Shown piece by piece: positions 5,489-31,886 of a stretch of DNA of 45,440 nucleotides. Position 1 is the stretch's first letter, and each line of letters starts with the position of its first letter. Below the pieces are notes generated by a model, which was not told the origin of the DNA, ran no database searches, and was given only the letters and a program-made list of their open reading frames with translations. This DNA comes from an uncultured Clostridia bacterium (GTDB lineage: Bacteria > Bacillota > Clostridia > TANB77 > CAG-508): the NCBI GenBank assembly GCA_947627755.1, contig CANQXD010000007.1:1-45440 (forward strand), written 5' to 3'. Both the position numbers and the translations under genes were made by a program.

Positions 5489-6854
5489 CTAATGAAGTAT
5501 TTTTAATGCTTCATTTATATTTCTAACGCCTATTATATCTAATTTATAACTATCTTTCAATAGTTTTTTGTTATTTTCTGGAATAATACATTTTTTGAAG
5601 CCTAATTTTTCCGCTTCTTTTAATCTTTTTTCTATCATGTTGACTGCTCGTACTTCGCCAGTTAAGCCGTACTTCACCAATTGCTACTAGGTCAGTTTGA
5701 ATGCTAATGTTTTTAAAACTAGAACTTACAGCTAAAATAATTCCTAAATCGATGGCAGGTTCTGCTATACGAATTCCACTTACTACATTTAAATACACAT
5801 CTTGTGAGCCTAAATTTAAATTGGCTCTTTTTTCTAAAACTGCCATTAACACAGTAAGCCTATTATAATCGATTCCATTTGCTGTTCTTCTTGGAAGTCC
5901 AAATGTAGTTGGCGTAGTTAAAGCTTGAAGTTCAATTAAAAGTGGTCTTGTTCCTTCCATACTGGCTACAATTACGCTTCCGAGAAGGATTGTCTTCTCG
6001 TTCGGAAATTAAGATGGAGGATGGATTTGTAATTTCTACCATTCCTTCATTTTGCATTTCAAACATTCCTACTTCATTGGTAGAACCAAAACGATTTTTT
6101 ACGCCTCGTAAAATACGATACGAAAAATAGCGTTCTCCTTCTAAGTATAAAACTGTATCTACCATGTGTTCTAACACTCTTGGTCCTGCAATGTTTCCCT
6201 CTTTTGTAACGTGTCCAATAATAATTGTTGTAATGTTTTGTTGCTTACAAATTTTCATTACTCTTGCGGTAATTTCACGTACTTGGCTTACTGTACCTGC
6301 TGCTGAAGTAATTTCGTCACTATACATCGTTTGAATAGAATCTATAATAACTAATTTAGGGTTTAGCTCTTGAATATTTTCTGCAATAATATCTATATCG
6401 GTCTCGCCTAGAAATAAAATATCTTCATTTTTAATATTTAATCGATCTGCACGAATTTTAATTTGCTCTGCCGATTCTTCCCCCGAAACGTATAAAACTT
6501 TCCCTTCACCTTGCATTTTATTACAAATTTGAAGAATAAGTGTAGACTTTCCGTATGCCCGGTTCTCCACCAAGTAACACTAATGAGCCTTTTACAATTC
6601 CGCCACCTAATACTCTATCTAACTCGCCAACACCGTGTAGAAATGCGAACTGCTTCTTTTCCTTCCACACTGTTTAGTGAGGTTGGTTTTGTCGTTCTTG
6701 TTTTTTTATCTGCAAGAAAAGCACCATCTTTATCCTTTACTACTTTTTCTTCGTAAAAAGTATTCCATTCATTACAAGCTGGGCATTTTCCAAGCCACTT
6801 AGGTGATTCATATCCACAGCTACTACATACAAAAACTGTCTTTGCTTTTGCCAT
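5489..6854 (-). pseudogene. radA: DNA repair protein RadA/Sms, interrupted by four +1 frameshifts
   Basis: RadA is a RecA-like DnaB-type helicase acting in recombination and branch migration. With four single bases removed the frame gives about 453 residues, the usual RadA length. It then has an N-terminal zinc finger (CSSCGYESPKWLGKCPAC), Walker A (GGEPGIGKST), Walker B (LVIIDSIQTM), the RadA motif KNRFG, and the Lon-like C-terminal region. The start at 6854 is preceded by GGGAGG. The shifts lie near 6635, 6553, 5982 and 5669. Each creates CGG directly before a conserved Gly codon (ACA-CGGT, ATA-CGGA, TCT-CGGA, GTA-CGGC). No nonsense or other decay is visible, so this may be recoding, a sequence artefact or a recent inactivation. 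I call it interrupted rather than dead. Confidence 0.85.
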
Positions 6855-6864
6855 ATTTCCTCCC

Positions 6865-6897
6865 ATGTCTCTTTAGGGACGTTTCCTAAAGAGACAT
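6865..6897. repeat. REP hairpin on the transposase 3' side
   Basis: A perfect 13-bp palindrome (ATGTCTCTTTAGG / CCTAAAGAGACAT) surrounds the core GACGTTT. It shares the GGGACGTTTCC core of the REP family but has its own flanks. The RAYT stop codon (6886-6888) lies inside it, and its left edge touches the radA ribosome binding site. Confidence 0.75.
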
Positions 6898-7650
6898 TTT
6901 CTTTTCTATTCTTTCTATCGTTTTTTTATTCAAGCCTAATATTCTAGCAATTTGTATTTTCTTAATGCCTTCTATTTGAATAAATTTTTTTATTATTTCA
7001 TATTTCTTTTCTTTATCATAATTCTGAATTCTTATTAAATTCTCTTCTTTTGCAATTTCTTTCATGCACTTAATTGCTTCTTCGTCTCCTATTTTGCTTA
7101 TCAATTCATAAGAATTTCCTAAATCTTGATTTTTGTTATAATTATCATGAAAAATTTTAAAGTTTGAAATATTATAATCAAAAAGCTTCATGATAAAATT
7201 TTTGTCCGTTATTCCTTCTTTATTTTGAACATATTCATGATAACTAATCCAAGGATATTTTTTTGACATACCTGCATTTTCTGGGTTCTTGTGAATATAT
7301 CTTACCACATTTTTTAAGTATGACTCTTCTTCTATATTCTTACTCTTAAATCGATTTTCAAATAAATGTCCGACTCTTTCGTACTTTTGATTAAAATAAT
7401 AAGAATAACTTACATTCAAGCTTTGTATAATCGTCGATAAATTCTCCGTTGGATCGTGAATAACAAAATGAGCATGATTTGGCATTAGTACATAGGCATA
7501 TAGCTCATATTTATAAAATTCTTTTGTTCTTTTCAACTCTTTTAAAAATTTTCTAAAATCTTGGTTATCTAGGAAGATATCTTGTCTATTGATACCTCTT
7601 ATAATAACATGATAAACATTAGTATTTGCTTTTTTTCTTTGGGCTCGCAT
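6886..7650 (-). CDS. REP-associated Y1 (IS200-like) transposase, RAYT
   Basis: Single-strand DNA transposase of the Y1/HUH type, about 254 residues. Visible are the HUH motif in MPNHAHFVIH (about residue 60) and the tyrosine-bearing helix with YYFNQKYERVGHLFENRF (about residues 90-110). A C-terminal helix-turn-helix (IQIARILGLNKKTIERI) resembles other RAYTs. The ATG at 7650 was chosen; an in-frame TTG at 7662 abuts AAGGAG too closely, although the ATG spacing of 12 is longish. The gene is bracketed by REP hairpins at 6865-6897 and 7824-7867. Related REP/REPIN copies occur elsewhere in the window, fitting a domesticated transposase that mobilises or maintains them. No second transposase gene or IS ends are seen. 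Confidence 0.9.
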   Translation of the reverse strand: MRAQRKKANTNVYHVIIRGINRQDIFLDNQDFRKFLKELKRTKEFYKYELYAYVLMPNHAHFVIHDPTENLSTIIQSLNVSYSYYFNQKYERVGHLFENRFKSKNIEEESYLKNVVRYIHKNPENAGMSKKYPWISYHEYVQNKEGITDKNFIMKLFDYNISNFKIFHDNYNKNQDLGNSYELISKIGDEEAIKCMKEIAKEENLIRIQNYDKEKKYEIIKKFIQIEGIKKIQIARILGLNKKTIERIEKKMSL

Positions 7651-7823
7651 ATTAGTATTCAACTCCTTTTTAATTAAATTTTTAATTTTTGAGCCCTAAA
7701 CTAATAAAAATATAGCACATTTTTATGTATATTGCTATATTTTTATTAAAATTTTTTTAATTTTTCTTGATTTTTTTTGATTTTCTTTCTTTTTTTACAT
7801 TTTTCTACTTTTTTCTTAGTAAT

Positions 7824-20632: not shown

Positions 20633-21469
20633 ATGAACGAGTTAGAAAAAGTTCAAGATTATACTAATGAAAATTTTGAAGATATTAAACATATTGATGA
20701 AAATGGTATTGAATTTTGGTATGCTAGGGAACTTATGATAATGTTAAAATATCACAAATGGGAAAATTTTATGAAAGTAATTGATAAAGCAAAAGAATCT
20801 TGTCAAAATAGTGGTATTAGCGTGTTTGAACATTTTCCTGACGTCAGGAAAACGATAAAAATGCCAAAAAGAGCCGAAAAAACGATTTTAGATTACAAAC
20901 TAACTCGTTATGCTTGCTATTTAATAGCACAAAATGGAGATAGTAGAAAGAAAGTAATTGCTCTTGCACAAACCTATTTTGCTGTTCAAACAAGGAAACA
21001 AGAAATTAGTGAAAAGGAATATAGTTCTTTAACAGAAGATGAGAAAAGATTTTATCAAAGAAACTTAACAAGAAAAGGAAATTATTCTCTTAATCAAACT
21101 GCTAAAAAAGCAGGAGTTAAAAATTTTGATCAATTTCATAATGCTGGGTACAAAGGTTTATACAATGGTGAAACTGCTAATGACATTGCTAGAAGAAAGG
21201 GATTACGATACAGAGAAGACATTTTAGATAATATGGGAAGTACCGAATTGATTGCAAATTTATTTCGAATATCTCAAACTGAAGAAAAACTGAAAAGAGA
21301 TAATGTAAATACAGAAAAAAAAGCAAATAAAACTCATTACGAGGTTGGCTCTAAAATAAGAAATACAATAAAAGAACTTAGAGGAACTATGCCAGAAGAT
21401 TTACCTACACCTCAAAAGAGTTTAAAACAACTTGAGAAGGAAAATTCTAAACAATTAAAAATTAAATAA
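20633..21469 (+). CDS. dinD: DNA damage-inducible protein D (DinD-like)
   Basis: Protein of 278 residues with an N-terminal BRO/DinD-like region (GIEFWYARELMIMLKYHKWENFMKVIDKA) and the family's middle and C-terminal parts (LNQTAKKAGVKNFDQFHNAGYKGLYNGE; RKGLRYREDILDNMGSTELIANLFRISQTEEKL). E. coli DinD inhibits RecA filament activity in the SOS response. The gene has a GGAGATG ribosome binding site and its own LexA-box promoter. DinD is often carried on accessory DNA, in keeping with the island behind tmRNA. Confidence 0.88.
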   Translation: MNELEKVQDYTNENFEDIKHIDENGIEFWYARELMIMLKYHKWENFMKVIDKAKESCQNSGISVFEHFPDVRKTIKMPKRAEKTILDYKLTRYACYLIAQNGDSRKKVIALAQTYFAVQTRKQEISEKEYSSLTEDEKRFYQRNLTRKGNYSLNQTAKKAGVKNFDQFHNAGYKGLYNGETANDIARRKGLRYREDILDNMGSTELIANLFRISQTEEKLKRDNVNTEKKANKTHYEVGSKIRNTIKELRGTMPEDLPTPQKSLKQLEKENSKQLKIK

Positions 21470-24024: not shown

Positions 24025-24783
24025 TTATACGATTGTTTTATACATTCCTAGTGTAAAAATTTTCGATAGCACTAAGAATAAAATATCAAATGGTACAAAT
24101 ATAACAGTAAATGAAGCTATTACAATAAATGGTCCAAATGGAATGTAGGCATCTGTTTCTTTCTTTTTAGTTATGATTAGCCCAATGCTAATGATAGCAG
24201 CAAGTAAAAATGCAATTAATGAAATTAAAATCATATTAAGCCATCCAAAGAATAACCCTAGAGCGCCCATTAGTTTTACATCTCCAAAGCCCATGGCTTC
24301 TTTTCCTGCAATAACGCCTCCTATTAAAGTAATTAGTAAAAATATTCCTGCTCCTGTAAGACTTCCAAGTAGCATATCAATTCCTACTTGTATGTTGAAA
24401 ATGCCTTGCACAAATGCGAACAATAAACCAACTTCAAAAATAGTTAAGTTTAGTCTGTTTGGAATAATTTGTAGTTTCAAATCAATGCAAAAAGCAGATA
24501 CTAGCATTGGTGCTAAAATAAAGTATTTGATTAAGGTTATTTGGTCAATTAAGTTAGATTGCCAACCTATAAAGTATAATAAGGCAATGTAGATTCCTGC
24601 CATAGCCACCATAAGAATATAGTTTGGTTTGAAGTTTTTTAAGTAGATTGTAAAAAATTCTTTTGAAAATACTTTTTTATATTCTGGCAGTCTTATATTG
24701 CACCATTCTACGAATTGTCCTACAATTAAGCCAAGTAGGCCCACTAATACATAGTAGATAATAGAAATGTTATTTAGGTACAT
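24025..24783 (-). CDS. Type IV prepilin peptidase (A24 family)
   Basis: Integral membrane aspartyl protease of 252 residues with about seven to eight membrane segments. The two catalytic aspartates are expected in FCIDLKLQIIPN and in the GxGD motif GFGDVKLMGALG. It cleaves class III signal peptides of pilins and pseudopilins. The N-terminal part has one Cys but not the paired CxxC motifs of the zinc-binding methylase region. It starts 3 bases after the yqeG stop with AGAGG as ribosome binding site. The prepilin-like protein at 43954-45249 is a possible substrate. Confidence 0.9.
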   Translation of the reverse strand: MYLNNISIIYYVLVGLLGLIVGQFVEWCNIRLPEYKKVFSKEFFTIYLKNFKPNYILMVAMAGIYIALLYFIGWQSNLIDQITLIKYFILAPMLVSAFCIDLKLQIIPNRLNLTIFEVGLLFAFVQGIFNIQVGIDMLLGSLTGAGIFLLITLIGGVIAGKEAMGFGDVKLMGALGLFFGWLNMILISLIAFLLAAIISIGLIITKKKETDAYIPFGPFIVIASFTVIFVPFDILFLVLSKIFTLGMYKTIV

Positions 24784-25437: not shown

Positions 25438-25470
25438 ACAAACCGATAGAAATATCCTACCGGTTTGCTT
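25438..25470 (-). terminator. Terminator of LRV-like gene 1
   Basis: AACAAACCGATAG pairs with CTACCGGTTTG across AAATATC. Near-identical hairpins follow LRV-like genes 2, 4 and 5 (26546-26580, 28960-28996, 30700-30734), so the terminator was copied with the genes. Confidence 0.7.
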
Positions 25471-25475
25471 TGTTA

Positions 25476-26357
25476 TTAACTTACTAAATTATGAATCCAA
25501 TTTTTTTTCGATACTTTACATATTCTCTTGTTTTCTTCTGTAATTTCAAAGTCTTCTCTTGCAAAGATAGTTCCAAGAACATCAGGATCTTGCTTATATT
25601 TATCTGTTACTTCTTCCTTCAATATTTCGTTAAGAAGTTCATTGGAGGTATTTTTATCTTTTACTATCAAAAGACGAATATTCCAAGCACTTGACTTTGC
25701 ACAAAGTTTTTTGTTTTCTTTTGTAATTGCAAAGTCTTTTCTTTTAAAGATAGCTGCAATAACATCAGGATCTTGCTTATCTTCATTTGTTACCTCTTCC
25801 TTAAACATTTCGTCAAGAAGTTCACTGGAAGTATTTTTATCTTTTACGATCAAAAGACGAATCTCCCATTCACTTGACTTTGCACAAAGTTTTCGGTTTT
25901 CTTCTGTTATTGTAAAGTCTTCTCGTGCAAAGATAGCATCAATAACATCAGTATCTTGCTTATCTTCATTTGTTACTTCTTCCTTCAATATTTCGTTAAG
26001 AAGTTCATTTGAGGTATTTTCATCTTTTACTATAAAAAGACGAATCCTCCAATCACTTGATTTTGCACAAAGTTTTTGGTTTTCTTCTGTACTTGTAAAG
26101 TCTTCTCTTGCAAAGATAGCTTTAAGAACATCAAAATTTTGCTTATTTTTACCTGTTCCTTCTTCCTTAAGTATTTCGTTAAGAACTTTATTTGAAGTTG
26201 TTTCGTCTTTTGCTACAAGTTCCCGAATTGATGCAAATTGTGACTTAGAAGCATCTTCTCTAAATTCATCTTTTTTTGCTTCATAAAACTTTTTTTGCGC
26301 TTCTTCTGTAAAATCGTTAAATCTTACCTCAATTCCTCCTAAAAACATTGTTTTCAT
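25476..26357 (-). CDS. LRV/HEAT-like repeat protein, paralogue 1
   Basis: The 293-residue soluble protein has a conserved N-terminal segment (VRFNDFTEEAQKKFYEAKKDEF) and then about four repeats of 61 residues. Each repeat reads roughly NTSNELLNEILKEEVTN, then KQ..DVIxAIFxREDF, then ITEENRKLCAKSSxW and IRLLIVKD. The (W-x-I/V-R-L-x-I-V) step resembles leucine-rich-variant or HEAT solenoids. No catalytic or membrane motif is seen. The promoter at 26407-26442 and AGGAGG precede it. It is first (leftmost) of a local family. A scaffold or binding role is inference. Confidence 0.8.
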   Translation of the reverse strand: MKTMFLGGIEVRFNDFTEEAQKKFYEAKKDEFREDASKSQFASIRELVAKDETTSNKVLNEILKEEGTGKNKQNFDVLKAIFAREDFTSTEENQKLCAKSSDWRIRLFIVKDENTSNELLNEILKEEVTNEDKQDTDVIDAIFAREDFTITEENRKLCAKSSEWEIRLLIVKDKNTSSELLDEMFKEEVTNEDKQDPDVIAAIFKRKDFAITKENKKLCAKSSAWNIRLLIVKDKNTSNELLNEILKEEVTDKYKQDPDVLGTIFAREDFEITEENKRICKVSKKNWIHNLVS

Positions 26358-26406
26358 ATTACTTCCTCCTTAAAATATAATTATATTTTTAAGTTACTAA
26401 TAAAAC

Positions 26407-26442
26407 TGACAATATTATATAAAAACTACATAATATTGTCAA
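26407..26442 (-). promoter_or_regulatory. Promoter embedded in a perfect inverted repeat (gene 1)
   Basis: TGACAATATTAT (26407-26418) and its inverse ATAATATTGTCA (26430-26441) surround 11 bases. On the minus strand TTGACA (26437-26442), 17 bases, and TATAAT (26414-26419) form a consensus promoter exactly within the repeat. It is therefore a likely operator. Confidence 0.65.
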
Positions 26443-26582
26443 CCTTTTTACATTAAAGTTTGTGAAAAATTGCAGTCTTTTGCTGCACTTTTATTGCACC
26501 TTTTTTTCCTTAAATTCTTAAAAACACTTCCTAAAAAGCATAAAACAAACCGATAGGAATATCCTACCGGTTTGCTTTGTTG

Positions 26583-27464
26583 TTAACTTACTAAATCGCG
26601 AATCCAAGTTTCTTTTGATTTTTTACATATTCTTTTGTTTTCTTTTGTTATTGCAAAGTCTTCTCTTTCAAAGATAGCTGCAAGGACATCATCATTTTGT
26701 TTATCTTCATTTGTTACTTCTTCCTTCAATATTTCGTTAAGAAGTTCATTGGATGTATTTTTATCCTTTACTATCCAAATACGAATCTCCCAATAACCAT
26801 TTTTTGCACAAAGCTTTTGTTTTTCTTCTGTTATTGTAAAGTTTTCTCTTGCAAAGATAGCTTCAAGAACGTAAAGAACTTGCTTATATTCATTTGTTAC
26901 TTCTTCCTTCAATATTTCGTCAAGAAGTTCACTAGACGTCTTTTTATCTTTTACTATCCAAATACGAACCTTCCAATCACTTGACTTTGCACAAAGTTTT
27001 CGGTTTTCTTCTGTTATTGCAAAGTCTTCTCTTGATAAAATAGCTCTAAGGACTCTAGAACATTGCTTATCTTCATTTGTTACTTCTTCCTTAAGTATTT
27101 CGTTAAGAAGTTCATTGGATGTATTTTTATTCTTTACTATCCAAAGATGAGTCTCCTCATCAGTTGACTTTGCACAAAGTTTTCGGTTTTCTTCTGTTAT
27201 TGTAAAGTCTCCTCTTGATAAAATAGCTTTAAGAACATTAGAATTTTGCTTGTTTTTATCTGTTACTTCTTCCTTGAGTATTTCGTTAAGAACTTCATTT
27301 GAAGTTTCTTCATCGTTTGCTACAAGTTCCCGAATTGATGCAAATTGTGACTTAGAAGCATCTTCTCTAAATTCATCTTTTTTTGCTTCATAAAACTTTT
27401 TTTGCGCTTCTTCTGTAAAATCGTTAAATCTTACCTCAATTCCTCCTAAAAACATTGTTTTCAT
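26583..27464 (-). CDS. LRV/HEAT-like repeat protein, paralogue 2
   Basis: A second 293-residue copy with an N-terminus identical to paralogue 1 over the first ~48 residues and about four divergent 61-residue repeats (for example KDKKTSSELLDEILKEEVTN and AKNGYWEIRIWIVKD). The upstream 120 bases, including the inverted-repeat promoter and ribosome binding site, are almost the same as for paralogues 1 and 5. That pattern suggests duplication followed by repeat divergence, with conserved regulation. Function unknown. Confidence 0.8.
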   Translation of the reverse strand: MKTMFLGGIEVRFNDFTEEAQKKFYEAKKDEFREDASKSQFASIRELVANDEETSNEVLNEILKEEVTDKNKQNSNVLKAILSRGDFTITEENRKLCAKSTDEETHLWIVKNKNTSNELLNEILKEEVTNEDKQCSRVLRAILSREDFAITEENRKLCAKSSDWKVRIWIVKDKKTSSELLDEILKEEVTNEYKQVLYVLEAIFARENFTITEEKQKLCAKNGYWEIRIWIVKDKNTSNELLNEILKEEVTNEDKQNDDVLAAIFEREDFAITKENKRICKKSKETWIRDLVS

Positions 27465-27513
27465 ATTACTTCCTCCTTAAAATATAATTATATTTTTAAG
27501 TTACTAATAAAAC

Positions 27514-27549
27514 TGACAATATTATATAAAAATTACATAATATTGTCAA
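27514..27549 (-). promoter_or_regulatory. Promoter embedded in a perfect inverted repeat (gene 2)
   Basis: TGACAATATTAT (27514-27525) and ATAATATTGTCA (27537-27548) flank the TTGACA/TATAAT promoter with a 17-base spacer, exactly as upstream of paralogue 1. A REP-like remnant with CCGTCCCC inside a CTGTTTTT/AAAAACAG hairpin lies nearby at 27606-27631. Confidence 0.65.
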
Positions 27550-27644
27550 CCTTTTTATATTAAAGTTTGTGAAAAATGTCAGTCTTTTACTGCACTTTTA
27601 TTGCACCTGTTTTTTTCCTCCGTCCCCAAAAACAGTTAAAAAAA

Positions 27645-27682
27645 TAACCGAGAACCAGTGGAAATAATTCCACTGGTTCCTT
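27645..27682 (-). terminator. Terminator of LRV-like gene 3
   Basis: GAACCAGTGGAA pairs with TTCCACTGGTTC across ATAA. The sequence differs from the terminator of genes 1, 2, 4 and 5 but resembles the one behind the broken copy (30088-30115). Confidence 0.7.
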
Positions 27683-27688
27683 TGGCTT

Positions 27689-28765
27689 TTAGTATATGAT
27701 TGCTTTTATTTTTTTCAAACATTCTACTGCTTGGTTTTCAGAAGAGAAATAACCTTTTAGCACCTCTAACATTTGCTTGTTCTTTTCCTTATAGGAAAAA
27801 TTGGTGTTAATTGCGTCTTTTACAGCCCCATTTTCTTCTCCTTTACTCATTGCTTCTAAGAGTTTCTTTGGGGTTTCTACATCTTTTGCTATTATCAAGC
27901 GAACTTCCCAATTATTAAACTCTGCGCAAGCATTTCTTAAGTCATCCTGCAAAAGCAAATTTTTATTACTTAAAATTGCTTTTATTACATCTTTATCTTG
28001 CTTGTCTTCGTTAGTGATTTCCTCACGAAGCATTGCATTTAAGAACTCAGAAGATGAGCCTTTATTCTCGGCTGCTATTATGCGGCATTCCCAATTATCT
28101 GACTCTGCACAAAGTTTTCTGGTTTCCTCCTCCATTGTAAATTTTGGATTAGACAAAATAGCTTTTATTACATCTTCATCTTGCTTCTCTTCATTAGTGA
28201 TTTCCTCGCGAAGCATTGCGTTTAAGAATTTAGAAGATGAGCCTTTATCTTCAGCTGCTATTATGCGGTATTCCCAATTATCAGACTCTGCACAAAGTTT
28301 TTTTGTTTCTTCATCCATTGTAAATTTTGGATTAGCTAAAATAGCATGTACTATGCTATTACTCTGCTTATCTTTGTTAGTGATTTCCTCGCGAAGCATT
28401 GCATTTAAGAATTCAGAAGATGAGTTTTCATCTTTGGCTACTATTTCGCGGTATTTCCAATAGCCCGACTCTGCACAAAGTTTTCTTGTTTCTTCCTCCA
28501 TTGTAAATTTTGGATTAGACAAAATATCATTTATTACATCTTCATTTTGCTTATATTTGTTAGTGAGTTCTTCGCGAAACATTGCATTTAAGAATTCAGA
28601 AGATGAGTCTTCATTCTCTGCAACCATTCGTCTAATAGAAATATACATTGAGTTAGCCGCCTCATTTTTGAATTTTTCTTTATTTGAAAGATAAAGACGC
28701 TCTTGTGCTTCCTTTGTTAAATCCCGAAATTCTACCTCTACTTTTTGCAATTCTACATTTGCCAT
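27689..28765 (-). CDS. LRV/HEAT-like repeat protein, divergent paralogue 3
   Basis: 358 residues, with the same architecture but only distant sequence identity. The N-terminal segment is VEFRDLTKEAQERLYLSNKEKF. About four to five 61-residue repeats read SSSEFLNAMLREEITN, KQ..DVIKAILSNPKFTMEEETRKLCAES and NWEYRIIAAEDK, and a distinct C-terminal cap of about 60 residues (YKEKNKQMLEVLKGYFSS) follows. Adjacent repeats inside the gene are highly alike, pointing to internal duplication. Its promoter keeps TTGACA and TATAAT (18-base spacer), but only one arm of the inverted repeat remains. Confidence 0.8.
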   Translation of the reverse strand: MANVELQKVEVEFRDLTKEAQERLYLSNKEKFKNEAANSMYISIRRMVAENEDSSSEFLNAMFREELTNKYKQNEDVINDILSNPKFTMEEETRKLCAESGYWKYREIVAKDENSSSEFLNAMLREEITNKDKQSNSIVHAILANPKFTMDEETKKLCAESDNWEYRIIAAEDKGSSSKFLNAMLREEITNEEKQDEDVIKAILSNPKFTMEEETRKLCAESDNWECRIIAAENKGSSSEFLNAMLREEITNEDKQDKDVIKAILSNKNLLLQDDLRNACAEFNNWEVRLIIAKDVETPKKLLEAMSKGEENGAVKDAINTNFSYKEKNKQMLEVLKGYFSSENQAVECLKKIKAIIY

Positions 28766-29011
28766 AATTTTTCCTCCTTAAAATTTTAAGATTGGTTTTT
28801 TCTACGTTTCTTTATAAAAGACTGGTTATATTATATAGTAAATTACATAATATTGTCAACCTTTTTATATTAAAGTTTGTGAAAAGTAGCATTTTACTGC
28901 ACTTTTATTACACCTGTTTTTTTCTTTAAGTTCCAAAAAGCAGTCCTAAAAAGCATAAAACAAACCGATAGTGATATCCTATCGGTTTGCTTTGCTATTA
29001 GCTTACTAAAT

Positions 29012-29893
29012 TTAGTAAGCTAACTTATGAATCCAATGTTTTTTTAATCGTTTACATATTCTTTTGTTTTCTTTTGTAATAGCAAAATCTTCTCTTTCAA
29101 AGATAGCTAGAAGAACTTCATCATCTTGCTTATCTTCATTTGTTACTTCTTCCTTCAATATTTCGTTTAGAAGTTCATTGGATGTATTTTTATCTTCTAC
29201 TATAAAAAGACGAGTCCTCCAATTACTTGACTTTACAAAAAATTTTTGGTTTTCTTCGGTTATTGCAAAGTCTTCTCTTGAGAAAATAGCTTTAAGAACA
29301 GCAAGCTCTTGCTTATCTTCATTTGTTATTTCTTCCTTAAGCATTTCGTTAAGAAGTTCATTGGAAGTATTTTTATCTTTTACTATTAAAAGACGAATAT
29401 ACAGATTACTTGACTTTGCACAAAGCTTTTGGTTTTCTTCGGTTATTGCAAAGTCTTTTCTTTCAAAGATAGCATTAAGAACAGCAAGATCTTTCTTATC
29501 TTTATCTGTTACTTCTTCCTTCAATATTTCATTAAGAAGTTCATTGGAGGTATTTTCATCTTTTACTATCCAAAGACGAGTCGTCCAATTACTTGACTTT
29601 GCACAAAGTTTTTGGTTTTCTTCTGTTATTGTAAAGTGTTCTCTTTTAAAGATAGCTTCAAGAACAGCAGGCTCTTGCTTATCTTCATTTGTTACTTCTT
29701 CCTTAAGCATTTCGTTAAGAACTGCATTTGACGTTCCTTCGTCTTCTGCTACAAGTTTCCGAATTGATGCAAGCTGTGACTTAGAAGCTTCCTCTCTAAA
29801 TTCATCTTTTTTTGCTTCATAAAACTTTTTTTGCATTTCTTCTGTAAAATCGTTAAACCTTACCTCAATTTCTTCTAAAAACATTGTTTTCAT
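29012..29893 (-). CDS. LRV/HEAT-like repeat protein, paralogue 4
   Basis: A 293-residue copy of the paralogue 1 type (MKTMFLEEIEVRFNDFTEEMQKK start) with four repeats. The upstream region differs from the other copies: the inverted-repeat promoter is absent, and an unrelated AT-rich leader with a TCCTCC ribosome binding site complement follows. Regulation is therefore probably different. Terminator at 28960-28996 as in genes 1, 2 and 5. Confidence 0.8.
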   Translation of the reverse strand: MKTMFLEEIEVRFNDFTEEMQKKFYEAKKDEFREEASKSQLASIRKLVAEDEGTSNAVLNEMLKEEVTNEDKQEPAVLEAIFKREHFTITEENQKLCAKSSNWTTRLWIVKDENTSNELLNEILKEEVTDKDKKDLAVLNAIFERKDFAITEENQKLCAKSSNLYIRLLIVKDKNTSNELLNEMLKEEITNEDKQELAVLKAIFSREDFAITEENQKFFVKSSNWRTRLFIVEDKNTSNELLNEILKEEVTNEDKQDDEVLLAIFEREDFAITKENKRICKRLKKHWIHKLAY

Positions 29894-30159
29894 ATTATTT
29901 CCTCCTATTAAAAAATTTTTTATTCTATGTAGTTTCTCCTTAGATGAAAAAGTAGGATTCTACATTAATATAATTTAATTATATCATATTTTACATAATT
30001 TGCAAATATTTGGTAAAAAAATTAAATTAAAGTTTATGAAAAGTAATATTAATTACAAAGTGATTTTAGTTATTTTTCTATATAGAAAAACCAGTGAAAA
30101 TAATTCCACTGGTACCTTTGGCTTTTAGTTCATAATTACTTTTATTTAACCTTTATACA

Positions 30160-30512
30160 TTACATCTTTATCTCGCTTTCTTTTAAAATTTCCCGTTTAC
30201 TTTCTGCCTCTAAAGCTTCCAGTAAGCGCAATAAATCTGCTTTTGATGTTTCTTTTGCCATTTTAAAAACTTCACCTAGTATATCTTCATCATATTGCTT
30301 ATTTTCATTTGTTCCTTCTTCCTTAAGTATTTCGTTAAGAACTGCATTTGAAGTTTCTTCGTCTTTTTGCTACAAGTTCCCGAATTGATGGAAATTGTGA
30401 CTTAGAAGCTTCCTTTCTAAATTCATTTTTTTGCTTCATATAGCCCTTTTTGCGCTTTTTCTGTAAAACTATTAAAACTTACCTCAATTTCTTCAAAAAA
30501 TCTTGTTTTCAT
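30160..30512 (-). pseudogene. Broken LRV-like repeat gene
   Basis: It begins MKTRFFEEIEVSFNSFTEKAQKGLYEAKK and then hits a stop in an A-run; the frame changes at least twice more (for example at a T-run near 30365). The 3' part encodes a single repeat start and an unrelated-looking tail (SKADLLRLLEALEAESKREI). The upstream inverted-repeat promoter (30557-30592) survives with one change in the first arm. The terminator is of the gene 3 type, so this copy looks like a recombinant of two lineages. Confidence 0.75.
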
Positions 30513-30736
30513 ATTACTTCCTCCTTAAAATATAATTATATTTTTAAGTTAATAATAAAACTGATAATATTATATAAAAATTACATAATATTGTCAATCT
30601 TTTTACATTAAAGTTTGTGAAAAAAGTGGCCTTTTACTGCACTTTTATTACACCTTTTTTTCCTTAAATTCTTAAAAACACTTCCTAAAAAACATAAAAC
30701 AAACCGATAGGAATATCCTACCGGTTTGCTTTTTTG

Positions 30737-31801
30737 TTATTTTACTAAATTGCGAATCCAATTTTTGTCTGATTTTTTACATATTCTTTTGTTTTCTTTT
30801 GTTATTGCAAAGTCTGCTCTTTCAAAGATAGCTACAAGAACATTTTCATCTTGCTTATCTTCATCTGTTACTTCTTCCTTAAGTATTTCGTTAAGAAGTT
30901 CATTAGATGTATTTTTATCCTTTACTATCAAATAACGAATATACCATTTACTTGACTTTGCACAAAGCTTTTGTTTTTCTTCTGTTATTGTAAAGTCTTT
31001 TCTTTCAAAAATAGCATCAAGAACAAACAAATTTTGCTTATCTTCATTTGTTACCTCTTCCTCAAGTATTTCGTTAAGAAATTCATTGGAGGTATTTTCA
31101 TCTTTTACCATCCAAAGACGAGTCCTCAAATTACTTGAATCTACCCAAAGTCTTCGATTTTCTTTTGTTATTGTAAAGTCTTTTCTTTCAAAGATATCTG
31201 CAATAACAGCAGGCTCTTGCTTATCTTTATTTGTTAATTCTTCCTTAAACATTTCGTTAAGAAGTTCATTGGAGGTATTTTCATCTTCTACTATCCAAAG
31301 ACGAGTCCCCAAATCACTTGACTTTGCACAAAGTTTTCGGTTTTCTTCTGTTATTGTAAAGTTTTCTCTTGATAAAATAGCTTTAAGAACAAACAAATTT
31401 TGCTTATCTTTATTTGTTACTTCTTCCTTAAGCATTTCGTTAAGAAATTCACTAGACGTATTTTCATCTTTTACTCTTAAAAGACGAATCCTCCAATTAC
31501 TTGACTTTGCACAAAGTTTTTGGTTTTCTTCTGTTATTATAAAGTCTTTTCTTTCAAAGATATCTGCAATAACAGCAGGCTCTTGCTTATCTTTATTTGT
31601 TACTTCTTCCTTAAGTATTTCGTTAAGAACTTTATTTGAGGTTTCTTCGTCGTTTGCTACAAGTTCCCGAATTGATGCAAATTGTGACTTAGAAGCATCT
31701 TCTCTAAATTCATCTTTTTTTGCTTCATAAAACTTTTTTTGCGCTTCTTCTGTAAAATCGTTAAATCTTACCTCAATTCCTCCTAAAAACATTGTTTTCA
31801 T
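30737..31801 (-). CDS. LRV/HEAT-like repeat protein, paralogue 5
   Basis: The longest copy of the paralogue 1 type, 354 residues with about five 61-residue repeats. Its N-terminal ~48 residues match paralogue 2 exactly (including ANDEETSN). It has one repeat more than its sisters, so repeat number varies between copies. Its promoter at 31851-31886 has both arms of the inverted repeat, and it abuts the sleB-type gene at 31892, leaving no room for a separate terminator of that gene. Confidence 0.8.
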   Translation of the reverse strand: MKTMFLGGIEVRFNDFTEEAQKKFYEAKKDEFREDASKSQFASIRELVANDEETSNKVLNEILKEEVTNKDKQEPAVIADIFERKDFIITEENQKLCAKSSNWRIRLLRVKDENTSSEFLNEMLKEEVTNKDKQNLFVLKAILSRENFTITEENRKLCAKSSDLGTRLWIVEDENTSNELLNEMFKEELTNKDKQEPAVIADIFERKDFTITKENRRLWVDSSNLRTRLWMVKDENTSNEFLNEILEEEVTNEDKQNLFVLDAIFERKDFTITEEKQKLCAKSSKWYIRYLIVKDKNTSNELLNEILKEEVTDEDKQDENVLVAIFERADFAITKENKRICKKSDKNWIRNLVK

Positions 31802-31850: not shown

Positions 31851-31886
31851 TGACAATATTATATAAAAATTACATAATATTGTCAA
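31851..31886 (-). promoter_or_regulatory. Promoter embedded in a perfect inverted repeat (gene 5)
   Basis: This is the same TGACAATATTAT...ATAATATTGTCA arrangement as before genes 1 and 2, with TTGACA, a 17-base spacer and TATAAT inside. It ends five bases before the stop codon of the upstream cortex hydrolase gene. Confidence 0.65.

Follow-up and report, generated by a model that had tools for sequence, protein, structure and literature searches.

Strings of tandem immunity genes of the EsaG and TipC type, which belong to the type VII secretion system (T7SS) of Staphylococcus and Streptococcus (Garrett et al., 2022; PMC9484751), polyimmunity loci (Zhang et al., 2012; PMC3482391) and the orphan immunity genes of recombinase-associated acquired interbacterial defence (rAID) loci (PMC12247911) appear, by analogy, to be the closest working precedents for the locus analysed here; for the evolution of its repeats, the closest seem to be those of fungal nucleotide-binding (NLR) receptors (PMC4986451). 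The locus is an array of genes coding for small leucine-rich repeat variant (LRV) proteins in a 45,440-bp stretch of DNA from an uncultured Clostridia bacterium (hereafter the window, which is an entire contig; the genome amounts to 1.64 Mb in 69 contigs and is 97% complete). We favour, with a probability of roughly 40%, the view that the array encodes a cytoplasmic repertoire of inhibitor- or immunity-type LRV solenoids under diversifying selection, like the EsaG and TipC strings.

The array shares with those strings a set of tandem, non-identical paralogues with common blocks at the gene ends and in the intergenic regions and a variable centre, a copy number that varies between close relatives, an occasional wrecked copy and mosaics (PMC9484751). 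It differs in that no sequence relationship to EsaG or TipC was detected, no toxin or secretion locus adjoins it, and each copy has its own promoter and terminator. As in polyimmunity and rAID loci, there is one locus per genome, formed by co-directional paralogues uninterrupted by toxins and differing between close relatives (PMC3482391; PMC12247911). In orphan immunity genes, non-synonymous changes accumulate at the toxin interface (PMC12247911) and here, too, they concentrate at the presumed binding face. Polyimmunity loci are, however, thought to be polycistronic, with small intergenic gaps (Zhang et al., 2012; PMC3482391), whereas the present array is not an operon, represents no known immunity family and has no detectable recombinase in the stretch around it. 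The WD, ANK and TPR repeats of fungal NLRs are likewise near-identical: positive selection acts on a few positions of each, which lie on the binding surface, and the repeats undergo changes in number and concerted evolution (PMC4986451). They belong to large receptors that also contain nucleotide-binding and effector domains, whereas the proteins described here are bacterial and stand alone.

Organization of the array

The array extends from 25476 to 31801, between yqeG and sleB, with all genes on the minus strand. A preliminary description of the window had counted five intact genes and one wreck, and both the open reading frames (ORFs) and the damaged copy were confirmed:

25476..26357, minus strand, gene A: A-type LRV solenoid, 293 amino acids; cap, three full and one truncated 61-residue repeat
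26583..27464, minus strand, gene B: A-type LRV solenoid, 293 amino acids; three full repeats and a truncated fourth
27689..28765, minus strand, gene C: second subfamily, 358 amino acids; about four repeats and a different helical C-terminus
29012..29893, minus strand, gene D: A-type LRV solenoid, 293 amino acids; three full repeats and a truncated fourth
about 30090..30512, minus strand, wreck E: A-type 5′ end, stops and frameshifts, then C-type 3′ end and terminator
30737..31801, minus strand, gene F: A-type LRV solenoid, 354 amino acids; four full and one truncated repeat

The intact genes have a common layout, a 58-residue N-terminal cap followed by 61-residue units, the number of which differs between copies, as had been described. 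The claim that all carry the same N-terminal segment holds for A, B, D and F, and fails for C: A, B and D are about 74–78% identical to F at the protein level, and C about 40%. The existence of two subfamilies, along with the excess of non-synonymous change and the perfect promoters (see below), had been missed. Wreck E has stops in all frames and only its N-terminal pieces match the family; its 5′ part is identical to A/F at 204 of 243 positions (about 84%). Because this A-type 5′ end is joined to a C-type 3′ end and terminator, E looks like an A/C hybrid. No further copy of the family was found in the 1.64-Mb genome. Assembly of a metagenome-assembled genome (MAG) can misjoin repeats, but the five intact frames speak against misjoining here.

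Amino acid change is concentrated at seven positions of the repeat

In the structural models (see below), each 61-residue repeat forms four helices, a to d. In a set of 20 A-type repeats taken from three species, amino acid entropy peaks at repeat positions 16, 17, 18, 21, 25, 44 and 46, which lie in the loop preceding helix b and on the exposed side of helices b and d. At these seven sites the proportions of non-synonymous (pN) and synonymous (pS) differences, obtained by Nei–Gojobori (NG86) counts with repeats treated as independent, were 0.535 and 0.136, respectively; at the other 54 positions they were 0.110 and 0.165. Mean entropy is 0.35 bits for helix a and 0.60 for helix c, but 2.36 for the exposed side of helix b; helices a and c are thus nearly invariant, although necessarily partly exposed. 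Nineteen distinct seven-residue combinations occur among the 20 repeats. Assigned by secondary structure and helix spacing, the variable residues would share one face. The preliminary description, which placed the divergence at solvent-type positions, was correct but too loose, the variation being confined to one helical face and the residues preceding it.

Because the sites had been chosen on the same A-type data, they were tested on the C subfamily and on single-copy orthologues from two other genomes, G021 and G026 (G numbers designate the genomes compared, one per species). In seven C-type repeats from two species, which were not used for the choice of sites, pN was 0.361 and pS 0.256 at the seven sites, against 0.089 and 0.208 in the rest of the repeat; the seven sites hold 36% of the non-synonymous change, where 11.5% is expected (permutation p below 1e-5). 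Between the G021 and G026 orthologues, 15 of 37 non-synonymous changes fall at the seven sites, which make up 26 of 272 codons, and pN at these sites (0.233) is higher than the synonymous rate of the whole gene (Fisher p 6e-4). An excess of amino acid change at the seven positions is therefore seen in three comparisons, two of which are independent of the choice of sites, and its best reading is that the variable face is probably under diversifying selection. Near-identical coil proteins with a few fast-changing residues per repeat are typical of adaptation to a changing partner, for instance a rival's toxin.

A diversity-generating retroelement target was considered and is argued against by the lack of a nearby reverse transcriptase, none being present among the window ORFs scanned, and by the lack of adenine bias: the variable codons differ by all four bases and share no adenine-rich parent.

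The 61-residue repeat and the LRV class

AlphaFold2, run with a 13-sequence alignment, returned all-helical solenoids for both F (predicted local distance difference test, pLDDT, 89.6; predicted template-modelling score, pTM, 0.70) and C (pLDDT 92.7; pTM 0.77). Protein C passes the cut-off of the Pfam LRV profile (PF01816; 22.2 bits, cut-off 21.6); the C-type protein of G018 scores 16.4 bits and no LRV match is listed for A, B, D or F. In a manual alignment, half-repeats match canonical LRV repeats position by position, canonical V6-R7 corresponding to V19-L20 and to I47-R48. The register is the same, with variable residues, V/I-R-x-x-V-A, a turn and a T/S-x-E-L-L-x-x-L helix, and the canonical variable positions 3–5, 8 and 12 correspond to 16–18, 21, 25 and partly 44–46. 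Unlike the canonical proteins, those of the array have two diverged units per 61-residue super-repeat and a distinct N-terminal cap, and most copies score below the Pfam cut-off. Since the half-repeats align with canonical LRV, C passes the cut-off and the models are all-helical, we place the 61-residue repeat in the LRV class, as a likely pair of diverged LRV units. The earlier description as an LRV/HEAT-like solenoid is upheld by this motif alignment, by the gathering-level match of C and by the two confident models; LRV is a repeat class with no assigned function here, and no characterised family was clearly matched.

Since canonical LRV proteins, in the genus and in the family, are variable at these positions too, the seven sites probably make up a variable face common to LRV repeats in general. 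Two other species of the genus encode canonical 24-residue LRV proteins (L093 1141–2154 and L095 1237–1791, both in G012, and L094 1063–1707 in G004); in the L093 protein, the variable residues immediately flank the V-R pair on both sides, at equivalent positions. In genus g9 (L087, L088, L089), the single-copy relatives of three species, at least about 292 amino acids long, seem notably divergent at the same two places in the repeat, around V-x-x-A-I and ahead of W/L-E-I-R.

Comparison with the Protein Data Bank (PDB) by Foldseek and VIA-align, in which the solved Azotobacter LRV protein was sought, gave listed matches occupied by general HEAT/ARM solenoids; their Z scores of about 11–13 lie in the range ordinary for repeats, and no function was inferred from them. 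A PDB sequence search with F gave no match, and the only two PDB matches to the repeat profile, an engineered cytochrome trimer (17 residues) and saccharopine reductase (E 1.5), were rejected as spurious. Pfam matches to DUF5680, SirC_C, STK_08120, DnaB_2 and the like were weak, partial and inconsistent between copies, covered no profile end to end and were attributed to chance over repeats.

Distribution and copy number

Sequence relatives occur in 12 of the 27 genomes of the genus, this one counted, and in 5 of 48 genera in an order-wide sample, more weakly outside the genus; those named come from rabbit-gut (‘Lapin’) and other MAGs of uncultured Clostridia. G010, G021, G026, G009 and G020 each carry one gene, between DUF1846 and sleB, and in the rabbit clade the array sits between sleB and yqeG. 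No LRV gene was detected between the markers in G023, which has the order DUF1846-sleB-yqeG, or in G005, G008, G012 and G015, with the order pyrG-sleB-yqeG. As the site holds at most one copy in deeper relatives and two to six in the rabbit-gut clade, the proposal that the family is expanding gains support, and copy number is far from strictly conserved. Shortened versions of 106 residues are present in G020 and G025, and only remnants in G024.

Among G000, G013, G018 and G011, yqeG and pepP are 93–98% identical, while the arrays differ. The site is spanned by one contig in G013, with two intact copies; the G018 contig ends inside the array after at least four copies, and in G011 pieces of the array lie at two contig ends. 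The copy with the leader of gene D is downstream of C in G018 and upstream of C here, so that the order differs as well. The G011 copy of pilD (prepilin peptidase; 24025–24783 in the window, L052 6347–7105) is only about 85% identical to those of its close relatives, against 93–97% for yqeG and pepP, which suggests a possible local replacement.

A sporulation or germination role through adjacency to sleB was considered and found weak: array-free species keep sleB and yqeG in order, and the promoters match the housekeeping consensus instead (see below). In genus g29, a short relative (about 185–194 amino acids; L084 1495–2079 and 2213–2899, L083 1498–2055) adjoins dxr and a protein whose repeats resemble peptidoglycan-binding ones; the gene's neighbour in the home genus is sleB, another peptidoglycan-binding hydrolase, and the parallel is possibly a coincidence.

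Recombination between copies

Genes A, B and F are 98.7–100% identical over the 75 bp upstream and 97–98% over the N-terminal 174 bp, but only 77–86% in repeats 1–3. In G013, repeats 2 and 3 show no difference in the first 90 bp but 87% identity in the remainder, whereas repeats 1 and 2 are 83% identical over the first 90 bp and 98% over the remainder; judged by these identities, the repeats are mosaic. Repeats 1–2 and 3–4 of F resemble a duplicated pair. A test similar to the pairwise homoplasy index (PHI), run without the hypervariable codons, was weakly positive at short range (p 0.02–0.04) but not at long range. The suggestion that the family recombines is thus moderately supported, by near-identical ends, mosaics of repeat halves, the A/C wreck and the weak PHI-like signal, and recombination in the array is likely, not proven.

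Promoters, palindromes and terminators

Promoter-like sites and terminator-like hairpins were found for all copies:

26407..26442, minus strand, promoter of A: TTGACA-17-TATAAT, 12/12, within a palindrome with 12-bp arms
27514..27549, minus strand, promoter and palindrome of B: perfect TTGACA/TATAAT
28830..28859, minus strand, promoter of C: TTGACA-18-TATAAT, 12/12; palindrome imperfect
29978..30006, minus strand, promoter-like site of D: 10/12, different leader
30562..30597, minus strand, promoter and palindrome of wreck E: retained, perfect TTGACA/TATAAT
31851..31886, minus strand, promoter and palindrome of F: perfect TTGACA/TATAAT
25439..25469, minus strand, terminator-like hairpin after A: AAACCGGTAGGAT...CTATCGGTTTG
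26542..26578, minus strand, terminator after B
27651..27680, minus strand, terminator after C
28957..28993, minus strand, terminator after D
30090..30113, minus strand, terminator after wreck E: C-type sequence
30696..30732, minus strand, terminator after F

Since each copy has its own promoter-like site and intrinsic terminator, the copies look like separate transcription units. Perfect promoters, with spacers of 17–18 bp, precede A, B, C, F and wreck E. The upstream regions had been described as nearly identical between several copies; this is right for A, B and F, but D, with 44% identity in a position-for-position comparison, has a different leader, which is also found on copies in G018 and G011. 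That the terminators are common to copies was borne out.

A palindrome, TGACAATATTAT-11-ATAATATTGTCA, encloses the promoter in A, B and F, and nearly so in wreck E. The palindrome alone has four matches in the window, against none in 100 shuffles, and none was found elsewhere in this genome within three mismatches; the same palindrome precedes copies in G013 and G018. An antisense promoter-like site (10/12) overlaps it, and the palindrome might serve as an operator or as a promoter for both directions. AT-rich palindromes (for example CTTAAAATTTTAAG) stand directly before the ribosome-binding site in several copies (26340–26390, 27450–27490 and 28766–28795 in the window) and also in deeper-branching orthologues; they might affect mRNA stability or translation.

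Other genes in the window

A BRO-N domain protein (20633–21469; Pfam Bro-N, E 1.8e-10) is encoded some 4 kb away from the array. In G018 and G011, ORFs on the far side of efp, at the equivalent spot, may be pieces of a BRO-N-like protein. Within the region 5932–7662, an IS200-like transposase (Y1_Tnp; 6886–7662) accompanies an ORF (5932–6573) which lies beside the transposase and disA and aligns with KaiC/AAA ATPase profiles over their later part only; it is possibly an interrupted radA-like gene.

Possible functions of the array

If the array is a repertoire of immunity-type binders, the small cytoplasmic solenoids would act on their own, the conserved scaffold formed by helices a and c carrying a hypervariable face that would bind a variable protein partner. 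Since the proteins have neither an effector domain nor an evident export signal, binding itself would be the function. The partners would most likely be antagonists from outside, chiefly the toxins of gut bacteria living nearby, and the array would work as an orphan immunity (polyimmunity) string. The likely sources of new variants would be selected point changes and unequal crossing-over, for which the near-identical blocks of promoter and N-terminus and the shared terminators would be the substrates.

Several results weigh against this interpretation. There is no toxin gene beside the array, and searches that detect the B. subtilis control found no LXG and no WXG100 protein in the 97%-complete genome; this is tempered by the fact that orphan immunity needs no cognate toxin gene. 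No homology to EsaG, TipC or a catalogued immunity family was found above cut-off in Pfam and NCBIfam, nor any convincing immunity or defence family match in Pfam, NCBIfam or PADLOC; PADLOC and PHROGs gave only weak, mutually inconsistent matches, and a literature search on LRV immunity proteins yielded nothing relevant. Each copy looks like its own transcription unit, while polyimmunity loci are thought to be polycistronic. The A-type variable sites were picked from the A-type data themselves, and the NG86 counts ignore the relatedness of the repeats. Lastly, the variable face is tied to no particular ligand; because no toxin partner was found and LXG and WXG100 proteins are absent from the genome, we only infer the ligand.

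A tentative reading, which we regard as possible, takes the array as an uncharacterised recognition repertoire, in which about seven positions per LRV repeat would make up a modular code for binding, which selection would diversify and which would be reshuffled among the tandem genes; gut Clostridia would so gain a heritable panel of stand-alone binders, with the logic of fungal NLR repeats but without receptor or effector domains. The same evolutionary logic as in immunity, with another ligand, would apply if the variable solenoids bound phage or counter-defence proteins in the cytoplasm, neutralising or sensing them. The diversifying face and the turnover in copy number agree with such an anti-phage role, and the only viral fold match with E below 0.001, A0A6J7WYX0 (Foldseek E 1e-5), is a phage protein that carries the annotation leucine rich repeat variant, so that phages carry the fold. 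With a TM-score of 0.22, however, the match shows fold class only; no sequence relative was found in viral contigs, and the array has no convincing PADLOC match, no effector domain and no defence-gene neighbours, which makes this role unlikely. We are more doubtful that the proteins are adaptors for variable partners of the cell itself (surface or secreted proteins, or peptides), docked to a common machine by their conserved face: helices a and c are unusually invariant, suggesting a second, conserved contact, and the strong housekeeping-type promoters imply regular use, but no co-varying partner array was found, and the conserved housekeeping genes next to the array also occur in other species that lack it.

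A modular build with a small number of variable positions per repeat, in 19 combinations among 20 A-type repeats, also recalls the sequence-specific nucleic-acid readers TALE, PPR and PUF, in which case the two variable patches per repeat would read bases. This is very improbable: all eight proteins counted are acidic overall (F, for example, has 62 K+R and 76 D+E), which argues against nucleic-acid binding, the variable residues are hydrophobic, acidic and aromatic, without the restricted alphabet of known codes, and the fold matches are general alpha-solenoids. Near-neutral drift, in which duplicated repeats would diverge at an unconstrained surface and turn over by slippage with no selected binding role, draws on the ease of tandem duplication and change in repeat number, on the copy that is already a wreck and on the truncated genes and remnants in G020, G025 and G024. 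Drift does not, however, produce non-synonymous change in excess of synonymous change, as seen at the seven sites; other positions, on helices a and c, are conserved, and five copies retain intact reading frames, promoters and terminators. We therefore consider it a poor explanation of the array.

If the view of the array as a set of immunity-type binders is correct, LRV solenoids would be added to the few bacterial protein families for which sequences reveal a rapid arms race over recognition, in this case in Gram-positive gut bacteria, about whose antagonists little is known. Because the proteins are small, probably soluble and modelled with confidence, their partners can be fished out, with the variable face as the handle; with their conserved frame and variable face, they would also be a natural binder scaffold.

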